DNA from: Thiomicrorhabdus immobilis
GTDB taxonomy: Bacteria; Pseudomonadota; Gammaproteobacteria; Thiomicrospirales; Thiomicrospiraceae
Direction of reading: 5' to 3'
Assembly: GCF_021654855.1 (NCBI RefSeq)
Contig: NZ_AP024202.1
Location: 2,046,001 to 2,110,000 of the forward strand
DNA length: 64,000 nucleotides
The position numbers and the translations under genes were made by a program. Within the stretch, counting starts at the first letter, position 1. Every line of letters starts with the position of its first letter. This document shows, piece by piece, positions 3,431 to 59,859 of the stretch. A model generated the notes under the pieces. The model made no database searches. It was given only the letters and a program-made list of their open reading frames with translations, and was not told where the DNA came from.

Positions 3431-3442
3431 ACCAGGCCTGGT
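3431..3442. repeat. ACCAGGCCTGGT palindrome, convergent gap
   Basis: Perfect 12-bp copy in the 40-bp gap between the converging HDOD gene and cysQ. It is followed by CG rather than the AA seen at several other copies. Confidence 0.9.
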
Positions 3443-3445
3443 CGT

Positions 3446-4360
3446 TTACATGACTTCCGGAAAGTGAGGCCAATGATGGTTTTTATCACCGACCGCGATA
3501 AAGAATGGGTTTAACAAAGACTCGGTTTGAATATACTCTAAAGAGTGCCCTGCAGCATTGATTACCGCACCACCCGCCACTTCTAAAATGCATTGTGCGG
3601 CGCCGGTATCCCATAAGGATGTGGGCCCAAAACGTGGATAGACATCCGCCTTACCTTCCGCCACCAAACAGGTTTTCAAAGCCGAGCCCATTTTAACGGT
3701 AGTGCTATGCCCAAGCTCACCCATAAAACGTTGCAATCGGCTACCATGCCTACGACTTACCGCCACTCTAAATGGTTGGCCTTCACCATGCTGCTGCAAC
3801 GGTAAATCCGCAACCTGAATGGGTTTTGCCTTGTTGAGCTGGCATTGCCAATCACAATCCAAAGGTAATGAAGATGGAAATAACCCCTCCAACTTACCCA
3901 CGATTGAATCGACAGACTTCGAATCGGCACCATCTAAATCTTGATAGGCAAAATAGAAGTCGCCCAACTCGGTTCCATAAACCACCCCCATTACAGGATG
4001 GTGATTATGAATCAAAGCGATATTGACACTGTACTCTCCCGTTTCAGCGATGAACTCCTTGGTTCCATCCAACGGATCCACCAACCAATACGTTGACCAG
4101 GCCTGGCGTTCTGCAAAAGGGACATTACCGATACTCTCTTCAGTGACCAAAGGGATATCTGGCGTTAAATGTTTTAGCGCAATACAGATAAACTCATCAG
4201 CGGCCTTATCCGCTTCAGTCACAGGGCTACCATCAGACTTACGTTCAATATCAACCGCTTGGCTTTGATGATAGTAAGTCGATATCAACTGCCCAGCATC
4301 ATAAGCAATTTGGCAAACGGTGGGCAACCAAGTTTTTAATTGTAAAGTCTTATTCGACAT
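3446..4360 (-). CDS. cysQ: 3'(2'),5'-bisphosphate nucleotidase
   Basis: Inositol-monophosphatase-fold, Mg-dependent phosphatase that converts 3'-phosphoadenosine 5'-phosphate (PAP) to AMP during sulfate assimilation and recycling. Visible signatures are SPVTEADKAAD, VTEES, the metal-binding WLVDPLDGTKEF (about residues 93-104) and the C-terminal WDTGAAQCILEVAGG. The 304 aa are longer than E. coli CysQ (246 aa), mainly through a central insertion around residues 140-185. Its start lies 37 bp after the stop of nudE on the same strand, a common pairing, and suggests co-transcription. An 11/12 copy of the ACCAGGCCTGGT palindrome (4096-4107) is embedded in the codons for QAW. Confidence 0.92.
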   Translation of the reverse strand: MSNKTLQLKTWLPTVCQIAYDAGQLISTYYHQSQAVDIERKSDGSPVTEADKAADEFICIALKHLTPDIPLVTEESIGNVPFAERQAWSTYWLVDPLDGTKEFIAETGEYSVNIALIHNHHPVMGVVYGTELGDFYFAYQDLDGADSKSVDSIVGKLEGLFPSSLPLDCDWQCQLNKAKPIQVADLPLQQHGEGQPFRVAVSRRHGSRLQRFMGELGHSTTVKMGSALKTCLVAEGKADVYPRFGPTSLWDTGAAQCILEVAGGAVINAAGHSLEYIQTESLLNPFFIAVGDKNHHWPHFPEVM

Positions 4361-4397
4361 ATCGATTCACTACCTATATACATCATTTTAGAAAAAT

Positions 4398-4946
4398 CTA
4401 AATATAACCGCGTTCTTTCAATAACAACATCAATGCGGCGTAAGCCCTTCCCTCAGAAAATTCCGGATGCGCAAGTAACTTATGCCAATCGGAGAGATGC
4501 CATTTGATGACCTCTAAGGGTTCTGGCTCATCGCCTTCCGCCTCTTGGGGAGACAAACCTGTCGCCAATACGATGTGCGTGTAATGGGTCATATAACCCG
4601 CCGCCAAACTGACAGAATCCAGAAGACGAACCTCTTGCGGCAAATGCCCTACCTCTTCTTGGCTTTCGCGAATACTCGCCTCTTTCCAAGTTTCACCGGG
4701 GTCGACCTTACCTTTTGGAAAACCCAACTCATAACGACCTACGCCCGCACCATATTCTCGGATTAATAACACATGGTCATCATCCAATAACGGAATAATC
4801 AATACCGCACCATCCGTACTTCCCAATAAGCGCTCATAACTCACCTGTGTGCCATTGGCAAACTCAAGCTCTTGCTTTTGTACCGTAAAAATCCGTGACT
4901 TGGCGGCAATATTTTCAGCTAAAATGGTAGGCGTTTTCTTAGACAT
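4398..4946 (-). CDS. nudE: ADP-compounds Nudix hydrolase
   Basis: Nudix hydrolase of the NudE type, which cleaves ADP-ribose, NADH and related ADP-linked compounds to AMP. The 182-aa protein carries a complete Nudix box, GKVDPGETWKEASIRESQEE (REsqEEvG core, about residues 79-101), preceded by the LIREYGAGVGRYELGFPKG segment typical of NudE. The EGDEPEPL segment near residue 145 is also diagnostic. The ATG at 4946 gives MSKKTPTIL, matching the family N-terminus. The gene is transcribed away from yrfG and towards cysQ, reproducing a common gammaproteobacterial neighbourhood. Confidence 0.93.
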   Translation of the reverse strand: MSKKTPTILAENIAAKSRIFTVQKQELEFANGTQVSYERLLGSTDGAVLIIPLLDDDHVLLIREYGAGVGRYELGFPKGKVDPGETWKEASIRESQEEVGHLPQEVRLLDSVSLAAGYMTHYTHIVLATGLSPQEAEGDEPEPLEVIKWHLSDWHKLLAHPEFSEGRAYAALMLLLKERGYI

Positions 4947-5067
4947 GCAAGCTTACTCGAAAAGATTATCTGCTTAAATTGAGTTCTCTTTAAAGATGCG
5001 TATAAAAGCACCAACCGACTCAATGGTTTAATGGATTCATCATAACGCTACAGGATAAAAATTGCCA

Positions 5068-5745
5068 ATGACACAGACAACCTCAAACCACTTAATTGAC
5101 TGGTCAAAAATCGAAACCGTGCTACTCGATATGGATGGCACCCTGCTTGATTTGCACTTTGATTGGCATTTTTGGATGGATGTGATTCCGCAAGCTTACG
5201 CTGAAAAAAACCAGATGACAATTGAACAAGCCAAGGAACTGATTCACAGCAAGATTCACTCGCAAACCGGCACACTTAATTGGTACTGCCTGGACTACTG
5301 GAGCGAAACCTTGAATCTACCTATCGCTGCCTTAAAAAGAGAGTTACGCCATCAGATTAAAGTGCATCCAGAAGTCATGGAATTTTTGGCTTTTTTAAAA
5401 AAACACAACAAAACCGTGGTTATGGTGACCAATGCGCACCGTGATAGCTTGGCGATAAAACTGGAAATGACCGAGATTGAACCCTACTTCGATAAATTGA
5501 TTTCAGCACACGATTTCGGCATGCCAAAAGAAGACATTGCTATCTGGTCAGAAATCCAAAAAGTCATCGCCTATAATCCAGATAAAACCCTGTTGATTGA
5601 TGACAACACCCATGCGCTTAGCACCGCAAAAGAATATGGCATCAAGCACCTGTTATGCGCCACCTTCGTTAGCCCAAAACTCGATAAAATCGATCCAAAA
5701 GGCTTTGAGCACTTCAGTAGATACTCAGAGATTATGCCTTCATAA
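5068..5745 (+). CDS. yrfG: GMP/IMP 5'-nucleotidase of the HAD superfamily
   Basis: HAD-like phosphatase matching YrfG, which dephosphorylates GMP and IMP. HAD motif I is LLDMDGTLLD (about residues 19-28), motif II is MVTNAH, and motif IV is LLIDDN. The segment LNWYCLDYWSE is strongly YrfG-like. The product is 225 aa from the ATG at 5068. An in-frame TTG at 5062 is better spaced from the AGGA at 5052-5055, so the exact start is uncertain by two codons. The gene is divergent from nudE, as in many relatives. It is followed by the inverted-repeat element. Confidence 0.9.
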   Translation: MTQTTSNHLIDWSKIETVLLDMDGTLLDLHFDWHFWMDVIPQAYAEKNQMTIEQAKELIHSKIHSQTGTLNWYCLDYWSETLNLPIAALKRELRHQIKVHPEVMEFLAFLKKHNKTVVMVTNAHRDSLAIKLEMTEIEPYFDKLISAHDFGMPKEDIAIWSEIQKVIAYNPDKTLLIDDNTHALSTAKEYGIKHLLCATFVSPKLDKIDPKGFEHFSRYSEIMPS

Positions 5746-5834
5746 AATCTTCGAAAACCCATGGAAAGCTTCTGAAGTCCCCGGTATTCCACTTTGGTTT
5801 TATTAAAAAAACCAAAAGACACTAATTTAAGATG

Positions 5835-6502
5835 ACCAGGCCTGATTGTTTTTTTGGTTTTAAGGTTTATTTAATCTTAGAAATTGAGAAGCCTTTTATT
5901 AATGATATACCTTTAATTTTATCTAAAGGCTTCCCGTCACTTTATTTGCTTGTCCAAATAAAGTAACCAAACAAAAGACACCCTGCTGACACACTTGATT
6001 TCACTATGCTTGTCCGCTGACATTCCTGAACTCGCTATGCTCAAACAGCAGGAATGTTTAAACGCGTCCTTCACTAAGTTCAATAACAAGTGCTTACAGA
6101 AGGGAGTTTTTTTCTACGTTATCTCATTGTTTTATTGTTTGATTTATTTTGGGTTGAAAAATATAACCAGGCCTGGTTCATTTTGTTGTTCTGTAAACTC
6201 AGTCACAAACGCCAAAAGTCCCCATTGAACGAAAGCGTGTAAAGTTCTTAACGAAGTGAACGGTAAAAAAACGCTGCTGTTTGAGCGTAGCTTGCGAAGC
6301 GAGTTCAGCGTTTTCAGTGAATGAGTTTAGAACTTACCTATTGAGAGAGCGGGGTGTCCTTTTGTGGTTACTATTTTGGACAAGCAAAATAGTAACGGGA
6401 AGCCTAAAACTAATATTAAAGGTGTATAAATATACAAAAAGGCTTCTCAACAAAGAAGACTAATCAACTTTTAAAACTAAAAATAAAGCAACCAGGCCTG
6501 CT
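5835..6502. repeat. 668-bp composite inverted-repeat element centred on ACCAGGCCTGGT
   Basis: This fills most of the 782-bp gap between yrfG and uup. The left arm (5835-6165) aligns, with drift, to the reverse complement of the right arm (6178-6502). Matching landmarks include GAGAAGCCTTTT, GGCTTCCCGT, TTGCTTGTCCAAA, AAAGTAACC-type ends, GACACCC and GCTCAAACAGCAG. The palindrome is perfect at the centre (6166-6177), and ACCAGGCCTG/CAGGCCTGGT-type copies mark both ends (5835-5846 and 6491-6502). Each arm holds its own hairpin: ACTTTATTTG/CAAATAAAGT (5939-5964) and ACTATTTTG/CAAAATAGT (6370-6393). These differ in sequence yet both pair perfectly. Short ORFs here (for example 6281-6463) look spurious. 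It resembles non-coding repeats widespread in gammaproteobacteria rather than a transposon with a transposase. Confidence 0.8.
6166..6177. repeat. ACCAGGCCTGGT palindrome at the centre of the inverted-repeat element
   Basis: Perfect copy, flanked on the right by T. Its midpoint (6171.5) lies within 3 bp of the midpoint between the two terminal degenerate copies of the element. Confidence 0.9.
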
Positions 6503-6527
6503 AAGTTTTGCAAACGCTTTTAAAAAC

Positions 6528-8465
6528 TTAAGCCTCACCCATCACCATAGACTCTAAAATTTCCCAACGTTCAAATGCGGCTTCTAATTCACTTTCTTTA
6601 TCATTCAAGCTTTTCAAAGTCGCTTGCACCACTTCCTCACCTTGCTGGTAAAAGTCGGGTTGCGCGATTTGCTCGTTAAGCGCTTCCAATTCCGCCTCTA
6701 AACTCTCCAGCAATTCGGGTAACGCATCGTATTCACGTTGGTCGTTGTAGCTCAGTTTTTTAGGCTTTTTAGCCAGTGTCGTTTCAACGGCTGCCACTTG
6801 CGCTACTGGGCTGGGTTTTTCAGCTTCCGGCTGGCGGGTTCCGGTTATTTTGGTCACATCGCCATAATGCGCTGGACGTTGGCGTAACCAGTCGTCGTAA
6901 CCACCGACATATTCATTGACCACACCCGGAGCATCAAACACCAAACTGCTGGTACACACGTTGTTTAAGAACGCTCGGTCGTGGCTTACAATCAACACCG
7001 TGCCTTGATAGTTCATCAATAACTCTTCAAGCAGCTCTAAAGTTTCCACATCTAAATCGTTGGTGGGTTCATCCAATATCAAGAGGTTGGATGGTTTGGC
7101 AAATACGCGCGCCAATAAAAGGCGGTTACGTTCACCACCGGATAACGATTTGACCGGCTGACGAGCACGCTCTGGCAGGAATAAGAAATCCGCCAAATAA
7201 CTCATCACATGCTTACGTTGCCCGTTAATTTCCACATGGTCACTCTCTTCAAGCACACTTTCCACCACCGGCTTGTTTTCATCCAATTGCGCACGATGTT
7301 GGTCAAAATAGGCGATATCGATATTGGTACCGAGTTTGACCGTGCCTGAATCGGGTTGCTGTTTACCCAGCAACAGCGCCAGCAAAGTGGATTTACCACA
7401 GCCGTTTTCACCGATAATCCCCACCTTGTCGCCACGAATGATCATGGTGCTTAAATCGCTGACAATCGGTTTGTTTGGCCAGTTAAAGGTGAGGTGTTCA
7501 ATATCAAACACTTGCTTACCAGAAGCATCCGAGCGGTTAACTTGTAAGTTGGCGGTACCTTGCTGACTACGGCGCGCCTTGTGAGTTTCGCGCAGTTTTT
7601 CAAGCGCTCTCACGCGGCCTTCATTACGGGTACGACGTGCTTTGATGCCTTGGCGAATCCAAGTCTCTTCCTGCGCGAGCTTTTTATCAAACAGCGCATT
7701 TTGTTTGGCTTCCGCTTCCAGGGTTTCGGCCTTACGTTCTAAATAGGTGTGGTAATCGCAGTTCCAATTGCTCAGATTACCGCGATCCAGCTCAATGATA
7801 CGGGTGGCCAACGCTTGCAAAAAGGCACGGTCGTGGGTAATGAAAATTAGTGAACAGCGAATGTTCTTTAAAAAGCCCTCTAGCCATTGAATGGAGGGGA
7901 TATCCAAATGGTTAGTCGGCTCATCCAGCAACAGAATGTCCGGGTTTTGCACTAGGGCTTGTGCCAATAACACGCGGCGTTTCATCCCGCCAGAGAGTTT
8001 GGAGAACTCACTGTCCTCGGGTAAACCGAGTTTAGAGATGATGGTGTCCACACGTTGTTTCAACTCCCAACCGTTTTGCGCTTCGATGTCTTGCTGGGTT
8101 TTGGTGAATTTCTCTAAGACTTCATCACTGTAGTTTTGTTCAAGCGCCAAGCTGAGTTGATGGAACTCTTCCAATAGATGACCTATATTGCCCATACCAT
8201 CTGCAATGACATGAAACACGCTGCCAGTGGTGTCATGCGGCACTTCCTGCTGCAGTTTGGCGATTTTTACGCCATCTTGCACAATGCGGGTGCCGCCATC
8301 GGCTTGCACAATGCCTTCAATCACTTTCAATAATGTGGATTTGCCCTCGCCATTACGGCCAACGATACACACGCGTTCTTGCGGTTCGAGTTGAAAAGAG
8401 ACCTTATCAAGTAAAGGGGCGGCGCCATAGCTTAAAGAGATGTCGCGTAAAAAAAGTAGTGCCAT
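6528..8465 (-). CDS. uup: ABC-F family ATPase Uup
   Basis: Soluble tandem ATPase of the ABC-F class; Uup acts on ribosome function and affects precise excision of transposons. The 645-aa protein has two ATPase cassettes: Walker A VGRNGEGKST (near residue 36) with LSGGMKRRV and LLLDEPTNHLD, and Walker A GENGCGKST (near residue 350) with LSGGERNRL and LILDEPTNDLD. The linker contains the family block IRQGIKARRTRNEGRVRAL. A C-terminal DNA-binding coiled-coil extension (about 560-640) distinguishes Uup from EttA. No transmembrane segments are seen. The gene stands alone next to the inverted-repeat element. Confidence 0.95.
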   Translation of the reverse strand: MALLFLRDISLSYGAAPLLDKVSFQLEPQERVCIVGRNGEGKSTLLKVIEGIVQADGGTRIVQDGVKIAKLQQEVPHDTTGSVFHVIADGMGNIGHLLEEFHQLSLALEQNYSDEVLEKFTKTQQDIEAQNGWELKQRVDTIISKLGLPEDSEFSKLSGGMKRRVLLAQALVQNPDILLLDEPTNHLDIPSIQWLEGFLKNIRCSLIFITHDRAFLQALATRIIELDRGNLSNWNCDYHTYLERKAETLEAEAKQNALFDKKLAQEETWIRQGIKARRTRNEGRVRALEKLRETHKARRSQQGTANLQVNRSDASGKQVFDIEHLTFNWPNKPIVSDLSTMIIRGDKVGIIGENGCGKSTLLALLLGKQQPDSGTVKLGTNIDIAYFDQHRAQLDENKPVVESVLEESDHVEINGQRKHVMSYLADFLFLPERARQPVKSLSGGERNRLLLARVFAKPSNLLILDEPTNDLDVETLELLEELLMNYQGTVLIVSHDRAFLNNVCTSSLVFDAPGVVNEYVGGYDDWLRQRPAHYGDVTKITGTRQPEAEKPSPVAQVAAVETTLAKKPKKLSYNDQREYDALPELLESLEAELEALNEQIAQPDFYQQGEEVVQATLKSLNDKESELEAAFERWEILESMVMGEA

Positions 8466-8529
8466 AAAAATCGTCGCTTAGAGTTCAGTGAATTGAATGA
8501 GTTAAATTGTGCTTACAACAGATAGGAAG

Positions 8530-9243
8530 TCAGTCTTTTACCACTTCCAAAATCAAGTTTTGGCTGGACGAGATATTATAGCGATTTAATGTACAGTCGG
8601 TATTTTCATTCTCGATTGTCTGCCAAAATTCTACAACCTCCTGGGTTTCGGAGGTGGTTAACGGTTTGCCATTGGGCTGTTTTTTATCCCATTGATACCA
8701 AAGATTAAATACCACCAGGCCTGGCGAGCGTAAAGCTTGCCAGAGATTTTCTTGAAATTGCTGGTCACTGAGTTCGGAGGGTAAACCTTCGGCATTGAAT
8801 ATATCGACAATAATCACATCATAATCGTGTTCATTCTCTTTGATGAACTCGATAGCATTGGCTTGCACGGTTTCAATTTCAGGCTCATTCGGAAGCTGAA
8901 AGAATCGGTAAGCACAATCGATTACGGCTTGGCGCAACTCCACCACGGTGATTTGCAAATTAGGCTGGGTGTGGAACAGATGGGTGGCCATCGAGCCGCC
9001 GCCTAAGCCGAGCATTAACACTCTAATGGATTGGTTGGCTTTTTTGCCGGAAGCAAAAGCGTGAACCCGTTCAATGATTTTCTCTTGATACTCAAAATTC
9101 AACGTCATCGGCGCATTGAGGTATAAACAGCTCTGCTCAATGGGCGAATCAAAATGCAGTTTTCGAGTAACGCGATTATCCACCACCTCGATTAAGCCAA
9201 ATTCATCACGCGTGCTGTGAATAACCATGCCATCATATTTCAT
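8530..9243 (-). CDS. Spermidine-synthase-like (SpeE-fold) protein
   Basis: A 237-aa soluble protein with a Rossmann methyltransferase/aminopropyltransferase fold related to spermidine synthase. Visible motifs are the AdoMet-type VLMLGLGGGSMATHL (about residues 73-87), the acidic strand end VVELRQAVI and VIIVDIFNAEGLP, which replaces the canonical polyamine-synthase acidic region. The N-terminal tetramerisation strands are reduced and no membrane helices are present. The substrate cannot be assigned from sequence; many such short SpeE-like proteins are not true spermidine synthases. Its ATG overlaps the stop of the upstream thioredoxin-like gene (ATGA), so translation is probably coupled. An 11/12 palindrome copy lies at 8714-8725 within PGLV codons. 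Confidence 0.75.
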   Translation of the reverse strand: MKYDGMVIHSTRDEFGLIEVVDNRVTRKLHFDSPIEQSCLYLNAPMTLNFEYQEKIIERVHAFASGKKANQSIRVLMLGLGGGSMATHLFHTQPNLQITVVELRQAVIDCAYRFFQLPNEPEIETVQANAIEFIKENEHDYDVIIVDIFNAEGLPSELSDQQFQENLWQALRSPGLVVFNLWYQWDKKQPNGKPLTTSETQEVVEFWQTIENENTDCTLNRYNISSSQNLILEVVKD

Positions 9244-9866
9244 GGTTGAACCCCAGTAATCGGTGTATTTTTATCTACCAAACCTGCCCACCAAAGTCGT
9301 AAGCGTAAACCCCAAGCGGTAGTAAAGCCCACCTCAATGAATTTGATTTCACCGTTAGGCGCAACCACAAAATCCGCAGGTACCGCTTTGGCACCAAAGG
9401 TTTTGAGCCAATGGCCTTCTAAATCGTTGACGATAAAATCCGGATTCATCTGATTCTCTTGAGCGTAGGTCAGGAGTTGTTCATCGTCTGCCGACTGAGT
9501 CGCGATATTGATCACCGCATAGTCTTCGGCAACCGATTCAATACCGCCTTTGCTCACTTGGCAAATCGGACACCAGGTTGCCCAAATATGTACCAATACC
9601 GGTTTACCTTGTTGGTTCATCGCCTGCAAATCCAAGGTCTTACCGGTGATAGATGTGACGTGCATGATTGGCGCTTGACCGTGAATCACGTCACCTTGCA
9701 TAAAAGGGCGAACTGAAAGGAACACCCCAATAAAAATGACTACCGTCAGCAGGTTTTTAAACCAATTCTTTTGCCAGATTTTAAGCGCTGGTTGAGGATG
9801 GCTTGAGGGTGAAAACGTGTTGTGATTCTCGTCTTGATTTTTGTCGTGGTTTTTGTCGTGATTCAT
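9240..9866 (-). CDS. Membrane-anchored thioredoxin-like disulfide oxidoreductase (ScsD/TlpA type)
   Basis: A 208-aa protein with one N-terminal membrane anchor (LLTVVIFIGVFLSV, about residues 38-53) and a periplasmic thioredoxin fold with the CxxC site WATWCPICQ (about residues 92-100) and a cis-proline region KAVPADFVV. This matches the protein disulfide oxidoreductase family related to ScsD, which handles periplasmic thiols and is often linked to copper stress. The N-terminus before the anchor is a low-complexity H/D/N/K run built on a repeated NHDK unit. It overlaps the SpeE-like gene by 4 bp. The divergent tpm gene lies 116 bp upstream. Confidence 0.82.
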   Translation of the reverse strand: MNHDKNHDKNQDENHNTFSPSSHPQPALKIWQKNWFKNLLTVVIFIGVFLSVRPFMQGDVIHGQAPIMHVTSITGKTLDLQAMNQQGKPVLVHIWATWCPICQVSKGGIESVAEDYAVINIATQSADDEQLLTYAQENQMNPDFIVNDLEGHWLKTFGAKAVPADFVVAPNGEIKFIEVGFTTAWGLRLRLWWAGLVDKNTPITGVQP

Positions 9867-9982
9867 TGGATTTGGTTCTTGTTTTGAGAAAGCTCAGTTC
9901 GGCATCATTGATTAAGTGAAACCCGGCTCTGTGTTAATATATGCCCCATATTATAAAGGCTTAGCTATAAAGGAATGGATTA

Positions 9983-10612: not shown

Positions 10613-10649
10613 GTTTTTGCTGTTTTACAAACGCAAAAAATTTAAACCC

Positions 10650-10661
10650 ACCAGGCCTGGT
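10650..10661. repeat. ACCAGGCCTGGT palindrome, convergent gap
   Basis: Perfect copy in the 91-bp gap between the converging tpm and degenerate-receiver genes; it is followed by AA. Confidence 0.9.
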
Positions 10662-10703
10662 AATATCCAAAATCTTCATTGAAATAGCGAAATACCTTAA
10701 GGC

Positions 10704-11168
10704 TCATTTCGCCAAGATTGCTGCTGGCGTCGTATCACCTCGCATCGCGTTCCAGCGGTTTAGACGCCTTAAGACCCTTAACATTTCATGCGGGGAAATA
10801 GGATTGATTAGGCAGTGGGCAAAATAACCGGCTTTCATCAAATCCGCCGAATCACTTATTTGCTGGCTCGAGCCCATCAGAATTAACGGCGCTTTTAAAA
10901 TGCTCGGATTGACCTTAACGATTTCTGCCCAAGGCTGACTTAAATTATGAGCCAAATCAGCCGAGACAAACACCGCAAAAAAGACTCGATGTGTTGAATA
11001 ACGACGCGATTCTAAATCGGCCAACATCTCTTGAGCCGTTCTCATCCAAATCACATCAACACCATAATGTTGCAAAAAAGCTTTTATTTCAGCCGCACGG
11101 GTTTTATCGGTATCACATACCGCAACCTTCTTACCCTGTAACCAAATCAGCTTTTCTTTGAACGACAT
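10704..11168 (-). CDS. Degenerate response-regulator receiver-like protein
   Basis: A 154-aa stand-alone protein with the alternating strand/helix pattern of a CheY-like receiver: KKVAVCDTD (strand 1 and acidic pocket), then FFAVFVSADL, PLILMGSSQ and HCLINPISPHEML. The usual phospho-acceptor Asp at the end of strand 3 is not at the expected place (FVSADL), and the invariant Lys-Pro after strand 5 is replaced by Asn-Pro (INP). Phosphotransfer is therefore unlikely and it is better called a pseudo-receiver. I chose the ATG at 11168 because GAGAGG lies about 6 nt upstream; a longer form would start at 11213. No partner kinase is adjacent. Confidence 0.65.
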   Translation of the reverse strand: MSFKEKLIWLQGKKVAVCDTDKTRAAEIKAFLQHYGVDVIWMRTAQEMLADLESRRYSTHRVFFAVFVSADLAHNLSQPWAEIVKVNPSILKAPLILMGSSQQISDSADLMKAGYFAHCLINPISPHEMLRVLRRLNRWNAMRGDTTPAAILAK

Positions 11169-12668: not shown

Positions 12669-12680
12669 AGCAGGCCTGGT
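12669..12680. repeat. Near-perfect copy (11/12) of the palindrome, AGCAGGCCTGGT
   Basis: Lies in the 212-bp convergent gap between nrdB and the Pat-like gene, just beyond the nrdB terminator; it differs from the consensus only at position 2. Confidence 0.7.
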
Positions 12681-16509: not shown

Positions 16510-16521
16510 ACCAGGCCTGGT
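16510..16521. repeat. ACCAGGCCTGGT palindrome, convergent gap
   Basis: Perfect copy with TT before and AA after, giving a 16-bp palindrome. It lies between the converging HDAC-family and DUF3379-like genes. Confidence 0.9.
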
Positions 16522-20187: not shown

Positions 20188-21176
20188 TTGATATTGTCCA
20201 CATCATCAACAGACGTTGGCGTCAATCGGGGTGTCGAGGTTGCTCCATCGAATGAATTCTCTGTTTCAAGTTGGTTTTCCGCTTGGTGACGCGCATTTTT
20301 GTTTTCTCTAATCTGCATCTTGAGCAAAGTCACTACAACTGCACCGTTCCAAATAACAATGAACCACACTAAATACAACCATAATAAAAACAGTGGAACG
20401 GCGGCAAAAGCACCATACACAACAGCATAAGTCGGAAACCACTCAACATACAAAGCAAAGCCGGTTTTTAAGAGTTCAAGTTGTAGCATCGCAAATAAGC
20501 CGCTTAACAGAGCCACCTTAAAAGGCACTTTGGCAACTGGCACCAATTTATAGAGTGCGGTAAAACCAAGCCACGCCAAAACTAACGGCACAATTTTCAT
20601 GCCGGATGTCAACTTATCAATCAAAGGAGTCGTGTCGACAATTAGAGGTAAAGCTAATAAAGAGGAGCTTAATACCAAACTCATACCCAACAAGAGAGGG
20701 CCAAGCAAACTAATACCTAAATAGTGTAATAAACTGACCCACCATTTTCGTTCTAGGCGTTCTGACCACAGCCCATTCAGCTTTTGGTCGACTTTCCATA
20801 GCAACATCAAGGTGGTAAATAACATTACCACCAGGCCTGGTCCTTTTAAACTGGCTGCTTGCAATGAAAACTTGAAGAGATACTCCTCAATCACCGGTTG
20901 CGAATTAGGCATAAGATTTCGAACCACCTGCTCCATGACCAGGTTTTCAAACGAAGCAAAGTAACTCGACACCGAAAACAGACCCAGCATCACCGCCAAC
21001 ATAGGTACGATACCAACCAGTGAAGTATAGGCCAAAATCGCCACCGCATCCGTCCCCTGACGGTTTTTGAAATGTAAGAATACCTGCTTCCAGAAATGCC
21101 AATCGGCGACCTGCTTCAGTAACGCCAGCATAGTCATTGCTTGAGGTTTTTGCTTATAGGAAGACTTGGACGACAA
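20184..21176 (-). CDS. yihY: YihY/BrkB (UPF0761) family inner-membrane protein
   Basis: A 330-aa membrane protein of the YihY/BrkB family with about six helices. It was once thought to be RNase BN, an assignment since withdrawn; the function remains unknown. Family features are the early DAVAILAYTSLVGIVPMLAV (about residues 42-61), a central FTTLMLLWKVDQKLNGLW and YAVVYGAFAAVPLFLLWLYL near the end. The hydrophilic C-terminal tail (about 295-330) is variable. It leads the two transporter genes with a 4-bp overlap. A perfect palindrome copy lies in its codons at 20830-20841 (reads PGLV). Confidence 0.85.
   Translation of the reverse strand: MSSKSSYKQKPQAMTMLALLKQVADWHFWKQVFLHFKNRQGTDAVAILAYTSLVGIVPMLAVMLGLFSVSSYFASFENLVMEQVVRNLMPNSQPVIEEYLFKFSLQAASLKGPGLVVMLFTTLMLLWKVDQKLNGLWSERLERKWWVSLLHYLGISLLGPLLLGMSLVLSSSLLALPLIVDTTPLIDKLTSGMKIVPLVLAWLGFTALYKLVPVAKVPFKVALLSGLFAMLQLELLKTGFALYVEWFPTYAVVYGAFAAVPLFLLWLYLVWFIVIWNGAVVVTLLKMQIRENKNARHQAENQLETENSFDGATSTPRLTPTSVDDVDNIK
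20830..20841. repeat. ACCAGGCCTGGT palindrome inside yihY
   Basis: Perfect copy inside coding sequence; on the minus strand the yihY frame reads it as GPGLVV. Confidence 0.9.
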
Positions 21177-23597: not shown

Positions 23598-23609
23598 ACC
23601 AGGCCTGGT
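23598..23609. repeat. ACCAGGCCTGGT palindrome inside the hvfC 5' fragment
   Basis: Perfect copy with T before and A after, giving a 14-bp palindrome; the hvfC frame reads it as LPGLVG. Confidence 0.9.
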
Positions 23610-29941: not shown

Positions 29942-29953
29942 ACCAGGCCTGGT
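29942..29953. repeat. ACCAGGCCTGGT palindrome upstream of the tRNA gene
   Basis: Perfect copy with TT before and AA after (16-bp palindrome), 22 bp upstream of the tRNA 5' end. Confidence 0.9.
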
Positions 29954-34840: not shown

Positions 34841-35866
34841 ATGCTGGTATTAGGAATAGAGAGCTCTTGTGATGAAACAGGCGTGGCGATTTACGACACC
34901 GATAAAGGCTTGATTGCCCACACTCTATATACTCAAGTAGAGTTGCATGCTCAATATGGAGGGGTCGTTCCCGAGCTCGCCTCCCGTGACCATATCCGTA
35001 AACTCACACCGCTGATTTTACAGACTCTTGAAGAGGCCAATATCGAGCGTACTGAATTGGATGGCATTGCTTACACCGCCGGCCCTGGGTTGATTGGCGC
35101 CTTACTCGCAGGCAGTTCGGTGGCACGCAGCCTAGCCTATGCATTGAAAATACCGGCGGTCGGTGTCCACCACATGGAAGGCCATCTACTCGCCCCCATG
35201 CTGGAAGACAACCAACCCGACTTTCCATTTATCTGTCTGTTGGTATCAGGCGGTCATAGCATGTTGATTCGGGTTGACGGGATTGGCGAATATAAACTGC
35301 TGGGCGACACTTTGGATGATGCCGCTGGTGAGGCTTTTGATAAAACCGCTAAACTTTTGGAACTGGGGTATCCGGGGGGGCCGAACGTGTCTAATTTAGC
35401 GTTAAAAGGCAATGCAGAGCGTTATAAATTCCCTCGCCCCATGGTAGACCGACCAGGCCTGGACATGAGCTTTAGTGGGTTGAAAACCTACACGTTAAAC
35501 ACTTGGCAAGCGGCCATCAAAGAAGATGATGCCAGCGAACAAACCAAAGCGGATATTTGCCGTGCTTTTGAATTGGCGGTAGCCGACACGTTAACCATAA
35601 AATGTAAACGTGCGTTAGAACAAGAAAATCTGAATCGTTTAGTGGTGGCCGGAGGCGTCAGCGCCAACCGTGAGATTCGTAGCAAGCTGGATGCCTTGAT
35701 GAAAAAACGCAAAGGCGAGGTTTTTTATCCAAGACTGGAGTTCTGCACGGATAATGGCGCGATGATTGCCTATGCCGGAGCACAGCGTTTATTGGCAGGA
35801 CAAAGTAATGATTTAAACTTTGCCGCAACCCCTAGATGGTCTTTGGAAGAATTACCAAAGATTTAG
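34841..35866 (+). CDS. tsaD: tRNA N6-threonylcarbamoyladenosine transferase
   Basis: Kae1/YgjD-family enzyme that transfers the threonylcarbamoyl group to A37 of ANN-reading tRNAs; 341 aa, normal length. ASKHA-fold motifs include [15 protein letters not shown], the metal-binding [12 protein letters not shown] (about residues 110-121), [19 protein letters not shown] and [13 protein letters not shown]. It is divergent from rpsU across a 178-bp region. An 11/12 palindrome copy (35452-35463) reads RPGLD in its frame. Confidence 0.97.
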
Positions 35867-36610: not shown

Positions 36611-36622
36611 ACCAGGCCTGGT
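36611..36622. repeat. ACCAGGCCTGGT palindrome between plsY and folB
   Basis: Perfect copy in a divergent gap, 14 bp upstream of the plsY start; T before and A after extend it to 14 bp. It falls where the plsY 5' leader or ribosome binding site would lie. Confidence 0.9.
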
Positions 36623-40486: not shown

Positions 40487-41971
40487 ATGAAACTCTACAG
40501 TGCCCAAAGTTCTCAAGCGATAGACCGAAACGCCATACAGAACCTTGGCATACCTGGCATCTTACTGATGAAACGAGCCGGTTTCTTTGCGTTTGACGTT
40601 TTACAAGACACTTGGCCAGAGAGCAAACTCATTCACGTTATCTGTGGAACCGGCAACAATGGTGGTGATGGTTTCATCATCGCTCAATATGCCTACCTGG
40701 CAGGTTTTAAAGTGCAAGTCAGCCTGATTGGTAATGAACAAAAAATCCACGGCGATGCTGCCATCGCCCTGCAAGAGCTCAAACAGCTTGGCATCACTCC
40801 AAGCCGCTTCTCAAAAACCGATATCCAGCAGAGTGACCTCATTGTCGATGCGATTTTTGGTACCGGTTTGAATCAACCTGTTAGTGGTGAGATCGCCCAA
40901 ATCATTGAACAGATCAATCAAGCCGAAAAACCCGTTTTGGCGGTGGATATACCCAGTGGACTCGATGCCAACACCGGACAGATCTTAGGTATTGCCGTGC
41001 ATGCTCAAGTCACCTGCAGTTTTATCACTCAAAAATTCGGCTTTTATACTTTCCAAGGGCCAGAAGTGTGCGGAAAAATTCATTTCAGTTCGCTATTTAT
41101 TCCCAAAGAACTCTACAAATCAGAAACGCCACTGGCCAAAAACCACCCACTTAAACATTGGTTAAACAAACTCCCCCTCCGACTCGCCACTCATCATAAA
41201 GGGGTTTCTGGCACCGTCTGCCTAGTAGGTGGCAATAAGACCATGATGGGAGCGATACAACTAGCAGGCCTGGCAAGTTTAAAAACCGGAGCAGGCCTGG
41301 TTAAAATCATCACCCATACAGAGCATGGCATCGCCATCACCCAAGCGATTCCGGAAGTCATGTGTTACCCAACTGAAGAACTGTTGAATCAAGCAGGCCT
41401 GGCCAATGTGATTGGCATCGGCCCAGGTTTGGGGCTTGATAGCTGGGGAAAAGAACTGTTTTCACAAGCGATGGATTTGCCGCTTGATAAGGTGATTGAT
41501 GCCGACGCCTTAAAACACCTTGCCGCCTTAACAAAAGAACAAGAGATGCCGCAGAACAACTGGGTACTCACTCCACATCCTGGTGAAGCCGCCCAGCTAC
41601 TTGAAACCGATACCGCCAGCATTCAAAAAGACCGCATTGGCGCCATCAAAAAACTGCAGCAAAAATATGGTGGTGTGATTGTACTTAAAGGCAATGGCAC
41701 CCTTATTTATGATGGAAACAATATGGAAATCTGTTTGGCGGGTAATCCGGGCATGGCGGTTGGTGGCATGGGGGATATATTGACCGGAACCATTGCCACC
41801 TTTATTGCGCAAGGCTTATCGCTGTGGAACGCGGCCTGTTTGGGGGTTTCGTTGCATGCACATGCGGGCGACGTATTAGCCAATCAAAGCGGACAACCCG
41901 GGATTTTGCCATCGGAAGTGGCACATGTAATGAGCCAGTTGTTGAGCTATAGCGATAGCCCAACATCTTAA
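40487..41971 (+). CDS. nnr: Bifunctional NAD(P)H-hydrate epimerase / ADP-dependent dehydratase
   Basis: YjeF-type fusion that repairs hydrated NADH and NADPH; 494 aa. The N-terminal epimerase has VICGTGNNGGDGFIIAQYAY and DAIFGTGLNQP with VDIPSGLDANTG (about residues 1-215). The C-terminal ribokinase-like dehydratase has VCLVGGNKTMMGAIQLAGLA, IGPGLGLDSWG, VIDADALKHL and the closing NPGMAVGGMGDILTGTIATF. Three near-copies of the palindrome fall inside it (41263, 41290, 41392), read as LAGLA, GAGLV and QAGLA. It converges on the N-ATPase operon. Confidence 0.96.
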   Translation: MKLYSAQSSQAIDRNAIQNLGIPGILLMKRAGFFAFDVLQDTWPESKLIHVICGTGNNGGDGFIIAQYAYLAGFKVQVSLIGNEQKIHGDAAIALQELKQLGITPSRFSKTDIQQSDLIVDAIFGTGLNQPVSGEIAQIIEQINQAEKPVLAVDIPSGLDANTGQILGIAVHAQVTCSFITQKFGFYTFQGPEVCGKIHFSSLFIPKELYKSETPLAKNHPLKHWLNKLPLRLATHHKGVSGTVCLVGGNKTMMGAIQLAGLASLKTGAGLVKIITHTEHGIAITQAIPEVMCYPTEELLNQAGLANVIGIGPGLGLDSWGKELFSQAMDLPLDKVIDADALKHLAALTKEQEMPQNNWVLTPHPGEAAQLLETDTASIQKDRIGAIKKLQQKYGGVIVLKGNGTLIYDGNNMEICLAGNPGMAVGGMGDILTGTIATFIAQGLSLWNAACLGVSLHAHAGDVLANQSGQPGILPSEVAHVMSQLLSYSDSPTS

Positions 41972-49453: not shown

Positions 49454-50566
49454 TCATTTAGCTTTTGGCAAAAAATCAGATAACGCTTGGATGGTTTTGT
49501 ATAAAGAATCTTCATCCACCGCCAAGACATTGATATGCCCTAACTTACGCCCTGCTCTTTCCGCTTTATCGTACAGATGTAAAAACGCATTGGGCATCGT
49601 TAAAACCTTATCTACCGGCCCGGTTTCACCAATGATGTTGATCATGGCAGCAATCGGTTGGCGAGGGGACGTATCGCCCAACGGCAAACCGGTGATGGCT
49701 CTGACGTGGTTCTCAAACTGTGAGGTGTAAGCGCCTTCAATCGTCCAATGCCCTGAGTTGTGTACCCGTGGCGCCATCTCGTTGGCGACCAAGCCATCAA
49801 CCGTTTCGAACAATTCAAGCGTCAACACCCCAACATGATCCAACTCATCCAGCAAGCTGTGCATATACTCCTCGGCTTGCTGCTGAATCTCGGCTGAAAC
49901 CTGTCTTGCAGGTGCGATGGTGTATCGCAAAATACCTTCGTGGTGAACGTTTTGTACTAGCGGATAATAGACATGTTCGTTATTGGCGTTACGCACAGCC
50001 ACAATAGATAGCTCACGTTGAAAATCGACAAAACCTTCTAAAATCAATTCACGGTTACCGATTTCCGACCAGGCCTGGTCAACTTGCGATTCCTCTTTGA
50101 TGACAAACTGACCTTTCCCGTCATAACCTTCAGTGGTGGTTTTCAACACAGCAGGCAAGCCAATCTCCTCAACCGCAATCTTTAGACTTTCTAAAGAATC
50201 GACGACCTGATAAGGCGCACAAGGAATGCTCAACTGGTCAAACATCGCTTTTTCACGGCCACGGTGCTGTGAAACAAACAGGGATTTTTCCGCAGGATAA
50301 ACCGGCGTGGTTTTGGCGATTTCCCTGACCTGTTCCACAGAGGTATTTTCGCTTTCATAAGTGATGACATCGGCAAATTCCACCAACTGATTCAATGAAT
50401 TGGTGTCGTCGGATTGGTTATACATATGCCCCAATAATGCAGAGGGTTCATCATGACTGGTTCCATAAAAACCAAACTTTTGCCCTAACGGATAGCCGGC
50501 AATTGCCAACATACGTCCAAGTTGACCTGCACCTAATACACCAATGCGTTTTGTAATCGGGGTCAT
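49454..50566 (-). CDS. purK: N5-carboxyaminoimidazole ribonucleotide synthase
   Basis: ATP-grasp enzyme of purine biosynthesis that makes N5-CAIR from AIR, bicarbonate and ATP; 370 aa. The start MTPITKRIGVLGAGQLGRML (nucleotide-binding), central LKTTTEGYDGKGQFVI (about residues 138-153) and the ligand block NEMAPRVHNSGHWTIEGAYT are conserved. The ATG at 50566 has GGAG 6 nt upstream and aligns with the family start; the frame is open to 50611. It follows purE on the same strand after 158 bp. A perfect palindrome copy reads DQAWS in its frame. Confidence 0.96.
   Translation of the reverse strand: MTPITKRIGVLGAGQLGRMLAIAGYPLGQKFGFYGTSHDEPSALLGHMYNQSDDTNSLNQLVEFADVITYESENTSVEQVREIAKTTPVYPAEKSLFVSQHRGREKAMFDQLSIPCAPYQVVDSLESLKIAVEEIGLPAVLKTTTEGYDGKGQFVIKEESQVDQAWSEIGNRELILEGFVDFQRELSIVAVRNANNEHVYYPLVQNVHHEGILRYTIAPARQVSAEIQQQAEEYMHSLLDELDHVGVLTLELFETVDGLVANEMAPRVHNSGHWTIEGAYTSQFENHVRAITGLPLGDTSPRQPIAAMINIIGETGPVDKVLTMPNAFLHLYDKAERAGRKLGHINVLAVDEDSLYKTIQALSDFLPKAK
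50068..50079. repeat. ACCAGGCCTGGT palindrome inside purK
   Basis: Perfect copy within coding sequence; the minus-strand frame reads DQAWS. Confidence 0.9.
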
Positions 50567-52377: not shown

Positions 52378-52379
52378 GT

Positions 52380-56635: not shown

Positions 56636-56845
56636 TACTTTTACAACCCTTGTTAAAATCAGACCGGGCAATATAAAGAATTCCACCAATGAAAACTAAG
56701 AACTCTTATTTACAATCACATTACATTAAAATGACATTCAAGCTTGAACCGAGATATAACCCTATATAAATAAAGGTGAAATCCAAAGGCAAAACCCATC
56801 ACCTTAACTTGAACCAAAATATAAAATAAGCCATAATATATGAAT

Positions 56846-56898
56846 GCGCCGATTTGATATCAGCTTGCGGGCGCTTAAAAAGTACGGCTAAAGCGAGG
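56846..56898 (+). ncRNA. SAM-II-like (SAM-V-related) riboswitch upstream of metK
   Basis: The leader forms an H-type pseudoknot. Stem 1 pairs GCGCC (56846-56850) with GGCGC (56870-56874). Stem 2 pairs CTTGC (56864-56868), inside the loop, with GCGAG (56893-56897). The loop begins GATTT, and GGCTAAA precedes the stem-2 3' strand. GAUUU and GCUAAA at these places are hallmarks of the SAM-II class, which bind S-adenosylmethionine and usually repress. Sitting 86 bp before metK, the SAM synthetase gene, it makes biological sense. The remaining gap back to 56636 shows nothing clear. Confidence 0.8.
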
Positions 56899-56942
56899 AA
56901 CCCTCCATGATTTATTCTCTAAGTTCCCAGCACTGCCCCGTA

Positions 56943-56975
56943 CCTCGTTTTTAATAAACATCATTCTTCTCGAGG
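56943..56975 (+). promoter_or_regulatory. metK: Candidate riboswitch expression platform over the metK ribosome binding site
   Basis: CCTCG (56943-56947) can pair with CGAGG at the metK ribosome binding site (56971-56975) or with the identical CGAGG at the pseudoknot's 3' edge (56894-56898). The two pairings exclude each other, a typical sequestor/anti-sequestor layout. The T5 run after CCTCG could also support termination. Confidence 0.5.
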
Positions 56976-56983
56976 AACAAAAC

Positions 56984-58144
56984 ATGACTAAAACAACTGT
57001 ATTTACTTCTGAATCTGTATCTGAAGGTCACCCAGATAAAATTGCTGACCAAATTTCCGATGCGATGCTTGACGCCATTCTTGAACAAGACCCGCGTGCA
57101 CGTGTTGCCTGTGAAACTTTTGTAAAAACCGGTATGGTAATGCTAGGCGGTGAAATCACCACAGAAGCTTGGGTTGACCAAGAAGAGTTGGTGCGTAAAG
57201 TGGTTAAAGACATTGGCTACAACCACGGTGATTTAGGGTTTGACGGCGAAACTTGTGCGGTTCTGTCTTCTATTGGTAAACAATCTCCTGAAATCGCGAT
57301 GGGGGTTGATGATACCGCCGAGCATGAACAAGGTGCCGGTGACCAAGGATTGATGTTTGGATATGCGTCTAATGAAACCGATGTGTTAATGCCTGCACCG
57401 ATCTATTACGCACACCGTTTAATGGAACGCCAAGCCTATGTGCGTAAATCGGGTCAGCTAGACTGGTTACGCCCTGATGCAAAAAGCCAGATTACTTTAC
57501 GTTATGAAGACGGTCAGCCTGTTGCCATTGATGCGGTGGTACTTTCCACTCAGCACGGCCCGGAAGTGGACAACAACACGTTACGTGAAGCGATTATGGA
57601 AGAGATCATCAAACCGGTTCTACCTGCCGAGTGGTTACACAAAGAAACGCAATACCACATCAACCCAACGGGTCGTTTTGTGATTGGTGGACCGGTAGGT
57701 GATGCAGGCCTAACCGGCCGTAAAATCATTGTCGATACCTACGGCGGCATGGCTCGTCACGGCGGTGGAGCTTTCTCTGGTAAAGATCCATCAAAAGTCG
57801 ATCGCTCTGCAGCTTATGCTGGGCGTTATGTGGCAAAAAACATCGTAGCCGCTGGCCTGGCTGACAAGTGTGAGATTCAAGTGTCTTACGCTATCGGGGT
57901 TGCAGAACCGACTTCAATCAGCTTGGAAACATTTGGTACAGAAAAAGTCGACATCACCTTGATTGAAAAATTAGTGCGTGAACACTTTGACTTACGTCCT
58001 AAAGGGTTAATTGCGATGCTGGATTTATACCGTCCTATCTACCAAAAAACCGCTTCTTACGGTCACTTTGGTCGTGAATTACCTGAGTTCACTTGGGAAA
58101 AAACGGACAAAGCAGATGCGTTAAGAGCGGATGCTGGACTATAA
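56984..58144 (+). CDS. metK: S-adenosylmethionine synthetase
   Basis: Makes S-adenosylmethionine from methionine and ATP; 386 aa, standard length. [20 protein letters not shown] (about residues 8-27) is the ATP-binding start, followed by [12 protein letters not shown] (signature hexapeptide GAGDQG) and [24 protein letters not shown] at 56972-56976 is at 7-nt spacing. The leader carries a SAM-II-like riboswitch, so the product would repress its own synthesis. metF follows after 93 bp. Confidence 0.98.
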
Positions 58145-58182
58145 AGCTGTTTAGTTTGGTCAATTCTTAAATTCAAGATTTA

Positions 58183-58217
58183 ACCAGGCCTGGTAAAATT
58201 TCAATACCAGGCCTGGT
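58183..58217. repeat. Two perfect ACCAGGCCTGGT palindromes in tandem
   Basis: Copies at 58183-58194 and 58206-58217 are 23 bp apart start to start, about two DNA turns, in the metK-metF gap. The first is followed by AA, the second by CG. Confidence 0.9.
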
Positions 58218-58237
58218 CGCTTTAAAAGAGAGACAAA

Positions 58238-59095
58238 ATGAAATCTCAACAAAAATACCCTCAAAAATTCAGTTTGGAGTTTTTCCCCCCGAGAACCGAA
58301 CCGGGCATGGAAAAACTTAAAACCGTCATTAATGAATTAGGCACTTTGAACCCTGAATATATGTCTGTTACATACGGTGCTGGCGGAACCACTCAAGAAA
58401 GAACCCTTGAAACCGTACGCTATATCCAAGAGCAGACAGACCAAGAAGCCGCTCCTCACTTAACCTGTATTGGCGCCTGCCAAGAGAGTGTCACGGAACT
58501 TTTGGATACTTATGAAGCTTTGGGAATCAAACGCATCGTAGCGCTTAGAGGTGACTTGCCTTCTGGGATGATGGACCCAGGTGAATTCAAATATGCCAGT
58601 GATTTAGTCAAGTTCATCAAAGACCAACGTGGTGACAAGTTTCATTTAGAAGTCGCGGCTTACCCTGAAACCCACCCTCAAGCACGTAATTGCGATATCG
58701 GTATAAAATGGTTCAAACACAAAGTTGACCAAGGCGCTGACTCGGCGATTACGCAGTACTTCTTCAACTTCGATAGTTATCGTTATTTTATTGATAATTG
58801 TGAACGTAACGGCATCGATATTCCGATTATTCCAGGAATTATGCCTATCACCAACTATGAGAACCTAATCCGTTTTTCGGAAGGTTGTGGTGCCGAAGTG
58901 CCTCGTTGGTTGAAGTGCCGCTTAGAAAGCTTTGAAGACGACAATGAAAGCCTACTCGCTTTTGGTAAGGATGTTGTTCAAGAACTGTCACAAAAACTGT
59001 TGGATGCCGGTGCGCCAGGCGTACATTTTTACAGCATGAACAGTGTTGAACCTACCTTGGAAATTGTTAAGAACCTGACCTTTAAGTCAAATTAA
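58238..59095 (+). CDS. metF: 5,10-methylenetetrahydrofolate reductase
   Basis: FAD enzyme that makes 5-methyl-THF, the methyl donor for methionine synthesis; 285 aa. SLEFFPPRTEPGMEKL, VTYGAGGTTQERTLET, HLTCIGA, RGDLPSGM and the TQYFFNFDSYRYFIDNC block are conserved. It lies downstream of metK and two palindromes, so its transcription may be partly independent. The AGAGAG ribosome binding site is weak but close to the ATG. It supplies the same methyl cycle as metK. Confidence 0.97.
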   Translation: MKSQQKYPQKFSLEFFPPRTEPGMEKLKTVINELGTLNPEYMSVTYGAGGTTQERTLETVRYIQEQTDQEAAPHLTCIGACQESVTELLDTYEALGIKRIVALRGDLPSGMMDPGEFKYASDLVKFIKDQRGDKFHLEVAAYPETHPQARNCDIGIKWFKHKVDQGADSAITQYFFNFDSYRYFIDNCERNGIDIPIIPGIMPITNYENLIRFSEGCGAEVPRWLKCRLESFEDDNESLLAFGKDVVQELSQKLLDAGAPGVHFYSMNSVEPTLEIVKNLTFKSN

Positions 59096-59106
59096 AGAAC
59101 TCGATT

Positions 59107-59859
59107 ATGCGTATCTCTCGTCTGTTTTTAGAAGGCAATTACCAAGCCAAGCAAACCATTGCTTTACCGAAAGAGCAGGCGCACTATGTTTTAACGGTGT
59201 TACGCCTTAAAAACAACTATACGATTGAAGCCTTCAACGGCCACGGTTTGTTGGCTAGAGGCAAGCTGATCGTGACTAGCCGACGAACGGCTGATTTTGA
59301 AATTGAATCGGTCGAACAAACCCATAGCGAATCACCGTTAAACACGATTTTAGTTCAAGGGATCTCAAAGGGTGATCGTATGGATTACTCTATACAGAAA
59401 GCCGTAGAGCTTGGCGTCACCGCCATCCAGCCGGTTTTTACCGAACGCTGTGATGTCAAATTACAAGACGAGAAACGTGAAAAACGTCAGCAGCAATGGC
59501 AAGCCATTGTTATCAATGCTTGTGAACAGAGTGGGCGCACCGTCGTTCCGAAAGTTCTGCCTATCCTAACTTACCAGGCCTGGTTGGAATCTCTACAAAA
59601 CGCTGAGAGCAAACCTTTCGGTTTGGTTTTAGACCCTTACGCCAAAGACAGTTTAGCTACGGTTAATCAGCCTTTGCAAGAAGTTCCTATCAACCTGTTA
59701 ATTGGTCCTGAAGGCGGTTTAACCGAGGCCGAAGTGGATGCAGCGAAAACCGCCGGATTAACTCCCGTACAACTTGGCCCAAGAGTATTGCGTACCGAAA
59801 CAGCCGGGCCGGCGATTTTAGCGATATTACAAACACTTTGGGGAGATTTTGGTGTTTAG
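59107..59859 (+). CDS. rsmE: 16S rRNA (uracil(1498)-N(3))-methyltransferase
   Basis: SPOUT-class methyltransferase that modifies U1498 in 16S rRNA; 250 aa. An N-terminal PUA-like part (RISRLFLEG, then HYVLTVLRLKNN) precedes the knotted domain with QGISKGDRMDYSIQKAVELG (about residues 86-105), LLIGPEGGLTEAEVDAA and LGPRVLRTETAGPAILAIL. It starts 11 bp after metF, suggesting one transcript. A perfect palindrome copy (59573-59584) reads YQAWL. Confidence 0.97.
   Translation: MRISRLFLEGNYQAKQTIALPKEQAHYVLTVLRLKNNYTIEAFNGHGLLARGKLIVTSRRTADFEIESVEQTHSESPLNTILVQGISKGDRMDYSIQKAVELGVTAIQPVFTERCDVKLQDEKREKRQQQWQAIVINACEQSGRTVVPKVLPILTYQAWLESLQNAESKPFGLVLDPYAKDSLATVNQPLQEVPINLLIGPEGGLTEAEVDAAKTAGLTPVQLGPRVLRTETAGPAILAILQTLWGDFGV
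59573..59584. repeat. ACCAGGCCTGGT palindrome inside rsmE
   Basis: Perfect copy in coding sequence, read as YQAWL in frame. Confidence 0.9.

Follow-up and report, generated by a model that had tools for sequence, protein, structure and literature searches.

Copies of a 12-bp palindrome, ACCAGGCCTGGT, are dispersed over a 64,000-nucleotide stretch of the Thiomicrorhabdus immobilis chromosome (the window; NZ_AP024202.1, positions 2,046,001 to 2,110,000). All 12 perfect copies listed by the initial annotation are present, and a further seven carry one mismatch (Table 1). This total of 19 compares with 0.04 expected and was not reached in any of 100 dinucleotide shuffles of the window (0/100). 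The core, CAGGCCTG, had been put at about 25 occurrences where about one is expected; we counted 26, against a zero-order expectation of 0.56. Eight of the 12 perfect copies lie between open reading frames (ORFs; at least 120 aa) and four within one, and the statement that several of the intergenic copies occupy convergent gaps holds for four of them. The description of many copies as extended by TT...AA was too strong: exact TT..AA flanks occur in only 2 of 12, while three perfect copies form 16-bp palindromes and seven form 14-bp palindromes.

The complete window genome (2,539,444 bases) has 446 copies of ACCAGGCCTGGT and none (0) of a reversed control pattern. The initial annotation was right to call the palindrome highly iterated and dispersed, and a genome-wide density near expectation, which it had named as the result that would speak against it, was not observed. 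The family was represented by 62 genomes, and the order-level set is the same 62. The spelling ACCAGGCCTGGT (dialect D1) is present at 80–718 copies in 27 of the 62, own genome included, and these belong to four genera. The remaining 35 have 0–38 copies, and many of them belong to Thiomicrorhabdus, the genus of the window itself. Two genomes, G041 (38 copies) and G043 (0), were counted for ACCAGGCCTGGT only; every pattern described below was searched in the other 60. The 12-mer has 0 copies in 59 loci of other bacteria around the glutamate-cysteine ligase gene. Thiomicrorhabdus sp. Milos-T2 has a glutamate-cysteine ligase 91% identical to the one encoded in the window; the matches that follow are mostly labeled Thiomicrorhabdus, Hydrogenovibrio and Thiomicrospira, which places the window in that family. 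As a check of a phage-borne origin, the 14-mer ACCAGGCCTGGTAA was compared with 2.9 million viral contigs and matched 46 stretches, four of which are double matches of one palindromic place; one contig occurs twice.

Conserved positions extend beyond the palindrome, and the full motif of the window genome reads AAANYT-ACCAGGCCTGGT-ARNTTT. When half-sites are aligned on GGT, the right half is CCTGGT-A-R-N-TTT, in which the purine is present at 94% and the T's at 54–60%. The palindrome therefore has T-tracts on both flanks, each beginning four bases past GGT (T share 0.60, 0.58 and 0.54 at +4, +5 and +6; 184 half-sites). On the two sides, T-tracts occur independently or with a slight correlation (intraclass correlation 0.19, P = 0.05), which indicates that the motif is truly two-sided in this genome. 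Among one-mismatch copies, 51 of 56 deviate at outer positions (1, 2, 11 or 12), and beyond about 24 bp the flanks are near background composition.

Other spellings emerged when parts of copy-poor relatives were read with no motif presupposed. In G026 the dialect is ACCGGCCGGT, with 1025 copies compared with 0–15 in the other 59 genomes. Three genomes, G007, G008 and G013, carry an asymmetric motif, CCAGGYTGGGG, 179, 257 and 304 times, respectively (0–7 elsewhere); the full dialect is ACCCCA(A/G)CCTGG(C/T)AGATTTT. The dialect of G023, ACCCGGCCTGTTGAGTTTT, is also asymmetric. The pattern AACAGGCC(T/G)G(G/T) occurs 588 times in G023, 441 in G047, 408 in G046, 341 in G036, 181 in G024 and 159 in G033 (0–84 elsewhere), where counts are summed over both strands and palindromic copies are counted twice. 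A dominant spelling, taken as 80 or more copies for the main one and 150 or more for any other, was found in 37 of the 60 genomes. For the 23 motif-less genomes, 59–80 kb was read in eight, 6–20 kb in 14 and none in G020, a coverage that an unrelated motif could escape. On a tree of the ComEC protein from 55 genomes (a single gene with long branches, and lacking G036), the AGATTTT dialect forms a single clade (G007, G008 and G013). The CCTGTT dialects form one four-genome clade (G023, G024, G046 and G047), with G033 elsewhere. On the whole, dialects other than D1 follow clades, and the motif-less genomes are scattered. As in known uptake signals, dialect and phylogeny correspond and an inner core is preserved.

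The T-tract is shared by several dialects. Its T share at +4, +5 and +6 is 0.95, 0.93 and 0.92 in G007/G008/G013 (0.92 at +7; 60 sites) and 0.77, 0.87 and 0.83 in G023 (30 sites); in G026 it starts one base later, at +5. AT-rich sequence thus follows the core at a set spacing, starting at +4 in the window genome, G007/G008/G013 and G023, and it is weak in Thiomicrospira. Alignment of half-site and T-tract across dialects indicates that, in the asymmetric forms, one palindrome half and its T-tract are retained while the other half is altered. The initial annotation had set DNA-uptake sequences aside because its motif is fully symmetric. That objection does not survive the comparison with sister lineages, whose asymmetric dialects retain one half-site and T-tract; the element therefore need not be symmetric.

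Further repeats and spellings were noticed in relatives. In G052 and G053 (20 kb each, near ComEC), GCAGGCCTGC is commoner than CCAGGCCTGG, by 6 to 1 and 3 to 2 places. A mild excess is seen for the palindrome GCCATGGC: G026 has four copies in 20 kb, where 0.15 are expected, and G029 has four in 60 kb, where the expectation is 0.46. In G007:C1:1-20000, a unit containing CATCCGCGGCTA occurs 28 times and resembles a clustered regularly interspaced short palindromic repeat (CRISPR) or other repeat array. A second repeated unit in G013:C1:1-20000, AGGGGTAAGGCGAGAAA, has about six copies in 20 kb and is separate from the uptake-like motif.

Individual copies are conserved in place. Over 70.9 kb of alignment between the window genome and G032 (77.0% identity), 10 of 13 alignable sites are identical, compared with 11% of flanking 12-mers. 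Other relatives gave few alignable sites (identical at 5 of 8 in G027, 0 of 1 in G031, 1 of 2 in G049 and 1 of 1 in G048). Alignments of all sites may favour intergenic stretches that kept the motif, a bias from which a test of coding sites is free. There, six of seven sites are identical in G032 versus 5.9% of coding 12-mers (P = 2.8e-7), three of six in G027 versus 7.8% (P = 0.008), and one of one in G049. A lack of conservation between close relatives, the other result named beforehand as adverse, did not occur. In the reverse view, 17 sites of G032 lie in aligned stretches; 10 are identical in the window genome and three more are one base off. Sites therefore also turn over.

Table 1. Copies of dialect D1 in the window, with gene context and state at the aligned place in relatives
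Feature	Position	Strand	Context
Perfect copy, 16-bp palindrome CGACCAGGCCTGGTCG	3431..3442	.	Convergent gap
One-mismatch copy, outer position	4096..4107	+	Within ORF
One-mismatch copy	5835..5846	+	Between ORFs
Perfect copy	6166..6177	.	Convergent gap
One-mismatch copy	6491..6502	+	Between ORFs; perfect at aligned place in G032
One-mismatch copy	8714..8725	+	Within ORF; perfect at aligned place in G032 and G049
Perfect copy	10650..10661	.	Convergent gap; not conserved at aligned place in G049
One-mismatch copy	12669..12680	+	Between ORFs
Perfect copy, TT..AA, 16-bp palindrome	16510..16521	.	Convergent gap
Perfect copy	20830..20841	.	Coding; same in G032
Perfect copy	23598..23609	.	Coding; same in G032
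Perfect copy, TT..AA, 16-bp palindrome	29942..29953	.	Gap next to tRNA-Met gene; same in G032
One-mismatch copy	35452..35463	+	Within ORF
Perfect copy	36611..36622	.	Divergent gap; same in G032
One-mismatch copy	41290..41301	+	Within ORF
Perfect copy	50068..50079	.	Coding; same in G032
Perfect copy, first of close pair	58183..58194	.	Tandem gap; not conserved in G032
Perfect copy, second of close pair	58206..58217	.	Tandem gap; same in G032
Perfect copy	59573..59584	.	Coding; same in G032

Placement along genes was analyzed in 544 kb of the window genome (25 stretches, four of them selected because they hold pilin genes and one because it holds ComEC), with gene calls from ORF heuristics, as also for the orientation and coding-conservation tests. 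Of 83 sampled copies, 43 are coding (72.0 expected), 21 lie in tandem gaps (6.9), 17 in convergent gaps (1.6), one in a divergent gap (1.6) and one at an edge (0.9), an excess of 10-fold in convergent and 3-fold in tandem gaps. The control hexamer TGGCCA showed no shift to gaps (173 of 191 coding versus 165.6 expected). Coding copies had been described as read QAW or PGL/AGL, which fits the 43 in the sample: 22 are PGL, 19 are QAW and two use the third frame. The coding share is also low in other dialects (29/47 in G026, 5/25 in G008, 2/12 in G007, 9/16 in G013 and 8/23 in G023; about 83–87% expected). Neighbors less than 150 bp apart are inverted in 8 of 8 pairs in G007/G008/G013 and in three of four in G023; inverted close pairs and intergenic enrichment are both features of uptake signals. 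In tandem gaps, the G007/G008/G013 dialect faces with the genes six times and against them eight times.

Along the chromosome, the first 536 kb (21%) of the window genome holds 100 of the 446 copies, where about 94 would be expected if they were uniform, and twenty 20-kb stretches have a mean of 2.8 copies with a variance of 2.3. Segregation sites of the KOPS (FtsK-orienting polar sequence) or matS type show strand skew by replichore or confinement to part of the chromosome. Neither is seen here: the palindrome is strandless, its copies are not confined, and the asymmetric dialect is split between the strands 79:100, 115:142 and 150:154 in G007, G008 and G013, with the + copies listed for G007 found from 28 kb to as far as 1.86 Mb. 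In G006, spacing over the first 64 sites is more regular than in random placement (coefficient of variation 0.64 versus 0.98 ± 0.12, P < 0.001). The longest copy-free gap among the first 100 sites of the window genome (G000) is 35 kb, within G000:C1:409001-447000, and is not rare by chance (P = 0.12). It holds the genes for EF-Tu, NusG, L1, RpoB, EF-G, L2, L5, SecY and RpoA; it is a run of core genes with little freedom and not an island.

Genes for DNA import are widespread in the family. ComEC was found in 55 of 60 genomes and ComEA in 52, in 39 of them above the curated cut-off. Among motif-bearing genomes, 35 of 37 have ComEC and 36 of 37 have ComEA, and the exceptions are fragmented drafts. 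One genus (g5) has neither motif nor ComEA in any of its four genomes. Most other motif-less genomes have both ComEC and ComEA, so these genes permit the motif and do not explain it; the import machinery expected of an uptake system is present but does not discriminate. The window genome has 14 pilin-like genes, including a type II secretion set, and also a cluster with an MshE-like ATPase, a T2SSF protein and a secretin. In G000:C1:2350001-2389999, several large pilins of an unusual kind (GFTLVEM...SIGKDLQRDA type) form part of an MSHA-like pilus cluster that adjoins a type II secretion set. An orphan 176-aa minor pilin (G000:C1:553215) was considered as the reader of the motif and rejected, as its distribution does not follow the motif. 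Its gene in G024 (G024:C1:598145-598666) is listed with one internal TAG. A C5 methyltransferase (PF00145) was not found in the window genome, where the N4 and N6 classes were not searched.

Uptake sequences are described for the Neisseriaceae (DNA uptake sequence, DUS) and the Pasteurellaceae (uptake signal sequence, USS). Three sources (PMC12616744, PMC3630211, PMC1939737) report hundreds or thousands of copies and inverted pairs. For DUS, they give eight dialects in the Neisseriaceae with an inviolable inner core, agreement with phylogeny, permissive intergenic regions and some motif-less relatives. They place AT-rich regions downstream of USS, whereas DUS is a continuous asymmetric motif without them; the extended Haemophilus uptake signal, AAAGTGCGGTCAATTTT, has GGT-N3-TTTT spacing, and the Pasteurellaceae USS receptor is a prediction. 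The motif described here resembles the Pasteurellaceae USS (Hin-USS, Apl-USS) in its hundreds of copies, clade-following dialects, conserved inner core and inverted pairs, and also in its GC-rich core with a downstream T-tract at GGT-N3-TTTT spacing. Its numbers (446 here, 80–718 in 27 of 62 genomes and 1025 in G026) are in keeping with hundreds to thousands of copies of a core of about 9–12 bp. It differs from that USS in core sequence and in the palindromic form of the window dialect with T-tracts on both sides. With the DUS it shares dialects around an invariant inner core, a match to phylogeny, permissive intergenic regions, inverted pairs and motif-less relatives. Unlike the DUS, which is asymmetric, lacks AT-rich regions and is read by the receptor ComP, it comes with no ComP identified here. 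Because features of DUS and USS recur here and the spacing matches that of Haemophilus, we take the motif to be an uptake signal sequence. AAANYT-ACCAGGCCTGGT-ARNTTT is probably the local dialect of such a signal in the Thiomicrorhabdus/Hydrogenovibrio/Thiomicrospira family, where uptake, a receptor and a drive that spreads the motif are what we infer. With less assurance, we favor the view that the system is a third, independently evolved one, that it has switched between symmetric and one-sided forms, and that it has converged on a Haemophilus-like arrangement of core, N3 and T-tract. The open-licence PMC literature yielded no report of the exact 12-mer, nor of an uptake sequence in Thiomicrospira or Piscirickettsiaceae, and no title among the literature matches listed names an uptake motif in the family. 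In the accessible part of PMC6501319, "palindrom" appears only within the spelled-out form of CRISPR.

Such a system could work as follows. Free DNA that carries the motif would be bound by a receptor on the cell surface, for which a minor type IV pilin or pseudopilin is the likeliest candidate, and the T-tract may aid bending or melting of the duplex at the outer membrane. ComEA and ComEC would then import one strand, which would recombine into the chromosome. Motif-bearing alleles would in this way replace motif-less ones, and the motif would accumulate wherever the host sequence tolerates it. A shift in receptor preference would let the whole genome drift to a new dialect, two-sided or one-sided; if the preference were lost, the motif would decay.

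Several observations weigh against this interpretation. The T-tract is weak or shifted in some groups: in Thiomicrospira the T share is 0.53 at +3 and 0.45 at +4, then without excess, and the tract of D1 in the Hydrogenovibrio group begins only at +5. T-tracts on both flanks would also be expected from a dimeric binder. Competence genes do not separate the two groups of genomes, as 20 of the 23 motif-less ones have ComEC and 16 have ComEA; the window-genome ComEA scores 52.4 bits, just below the curated cut-off of 53.1. No convincing PilM was found in Thiomicrorhabdus with PF11104, a model that worked poorly as a yardstick for the type IV pilus since weak matches of about 420 aa, taken for FtsA, dominate. 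Without PilM, the pilus would be another, perhaps MSHA-like. No receptor was found in a search that profiled one pilin of the window genome. That pilin, the 176-aa orphan, has near full-length matches (53–80%) in only 8 of the other 59 genomes, including motif-less G029, and only weak ones in high-copy G021 and G022 and in the Thiomicrospira group. Gap preference varies: G023 has no excess in convergent gaps, its tandem-gap sites face with the genes by 6 to 1, and divergent gaps, which are not enriched here, are 1.5–3.7-fold enriched in samples from four of five relatives (small numbers). The first 100 sites of the window genome are not significantly even (P = 0.25, or 0.019 with the largest gap trimmed). 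There is no report of natural transformation in these bacteria among the literature matches listed.

The main rival is that the copies are sites for an intracellular dimeric DNA-binding protein, a nucleoid organizer or global regulator acting chromosome-wide. The initial annotation had proposed a dimeric chromosome organizer, and a two-sided site of 24 bp with a T-tract at either end, an even distribution along the chromosome and copies conserved in place would all suit such a protein. It is hurt most by the asymmetric dialects, since a symmetric dimer does not readily account for sister lineages in which the motif is strongly asymmetric, spans about 20 bp and recurs at hundreds of sites. About half of the copies lie within genes, there is no enrichment in divergent gaps here, and only 0–2 copies are present in many genomes of the genus. 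Confinement to one part of the chromosome is not seen; the organizer proposal is weakened. The longest copy-free gap seen also coincides with core operons, although such a gap is not rare by chance. We consider this explanation unlikely. A likeness to cyanobacterial highly iterated palindromes (HIPs) had been suggested too, in which a DNA methyltransferase with methylation-dependent repair would make or keep the palindrome. As described in PMC4390886, HIP1 is GC-rich, palindromic and iterated, relatives carry alternate palindromes, and deviations are biased to the ends; the present motif shares each of these traits. The fit is nevertheless poor: the motif is not palindromic in every lineage that carries one, as two dialects (in G007, G008 and G013, and in G023) are asymmetric and about 20 bp long, and T-tracts outside the core are conserved. 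A version based on GGCC methylation would need a C5 methyltransferase. Besides its absence from the window genome, none over the cut-off was found in 27 of the 37 motif-bearing genomes, where other methyltransferase classes were not searched, and this enzyme was rejected as a common cause. A HIP-like origin therefore appears highly improbable.

Two further explanations concern the placement and number of the copies. The excess in convergent and tandem gaps, the mostly inverted close pairs of the asymmetric dialects and the orientation of the G023 tandem-gap sites recall transcription terminators or another 3'-end RNA element. However, 43 of 83 sites are coding, the 12-mer could, by inspection, form only a short hairpin and single asymmetric copies none, and the G007/G008/G013 dialect stands in tandem gaps in either orientation. 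A terminator role as the main function is disfavored by the coding copies and by this dialect facing both ways, and we give it very little credence. Hundreds of dispersed copies could likewise be a mobile or repetitive extragenic palindromic (REP)-like repeat. The approach of the flanks to background composition past about 24 bp strongly disfavors this. The location of 43 of 83 sampled sites inside genes and the identity in place of 10 of 13 alignable copies in a relative with 77% identity also speak against it, and we find such an origin hardly credible.

To our knowledge, motifs of the uptake-signal kind have so far been described in only two other bacterial families. If our interpretation is correct, these sulfur oxidizers would be the third, with at least four dialects, a symmetric form of the signal and several losses inside one genus. 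The family would then be a new natural experiment in the origin of uptake specificity, its shifts between dialects and its loss. Matching dialect changes with pilin changes would provide a comparative route to the receptor, and adding the right motif to DNA could make these bacteria transformable.

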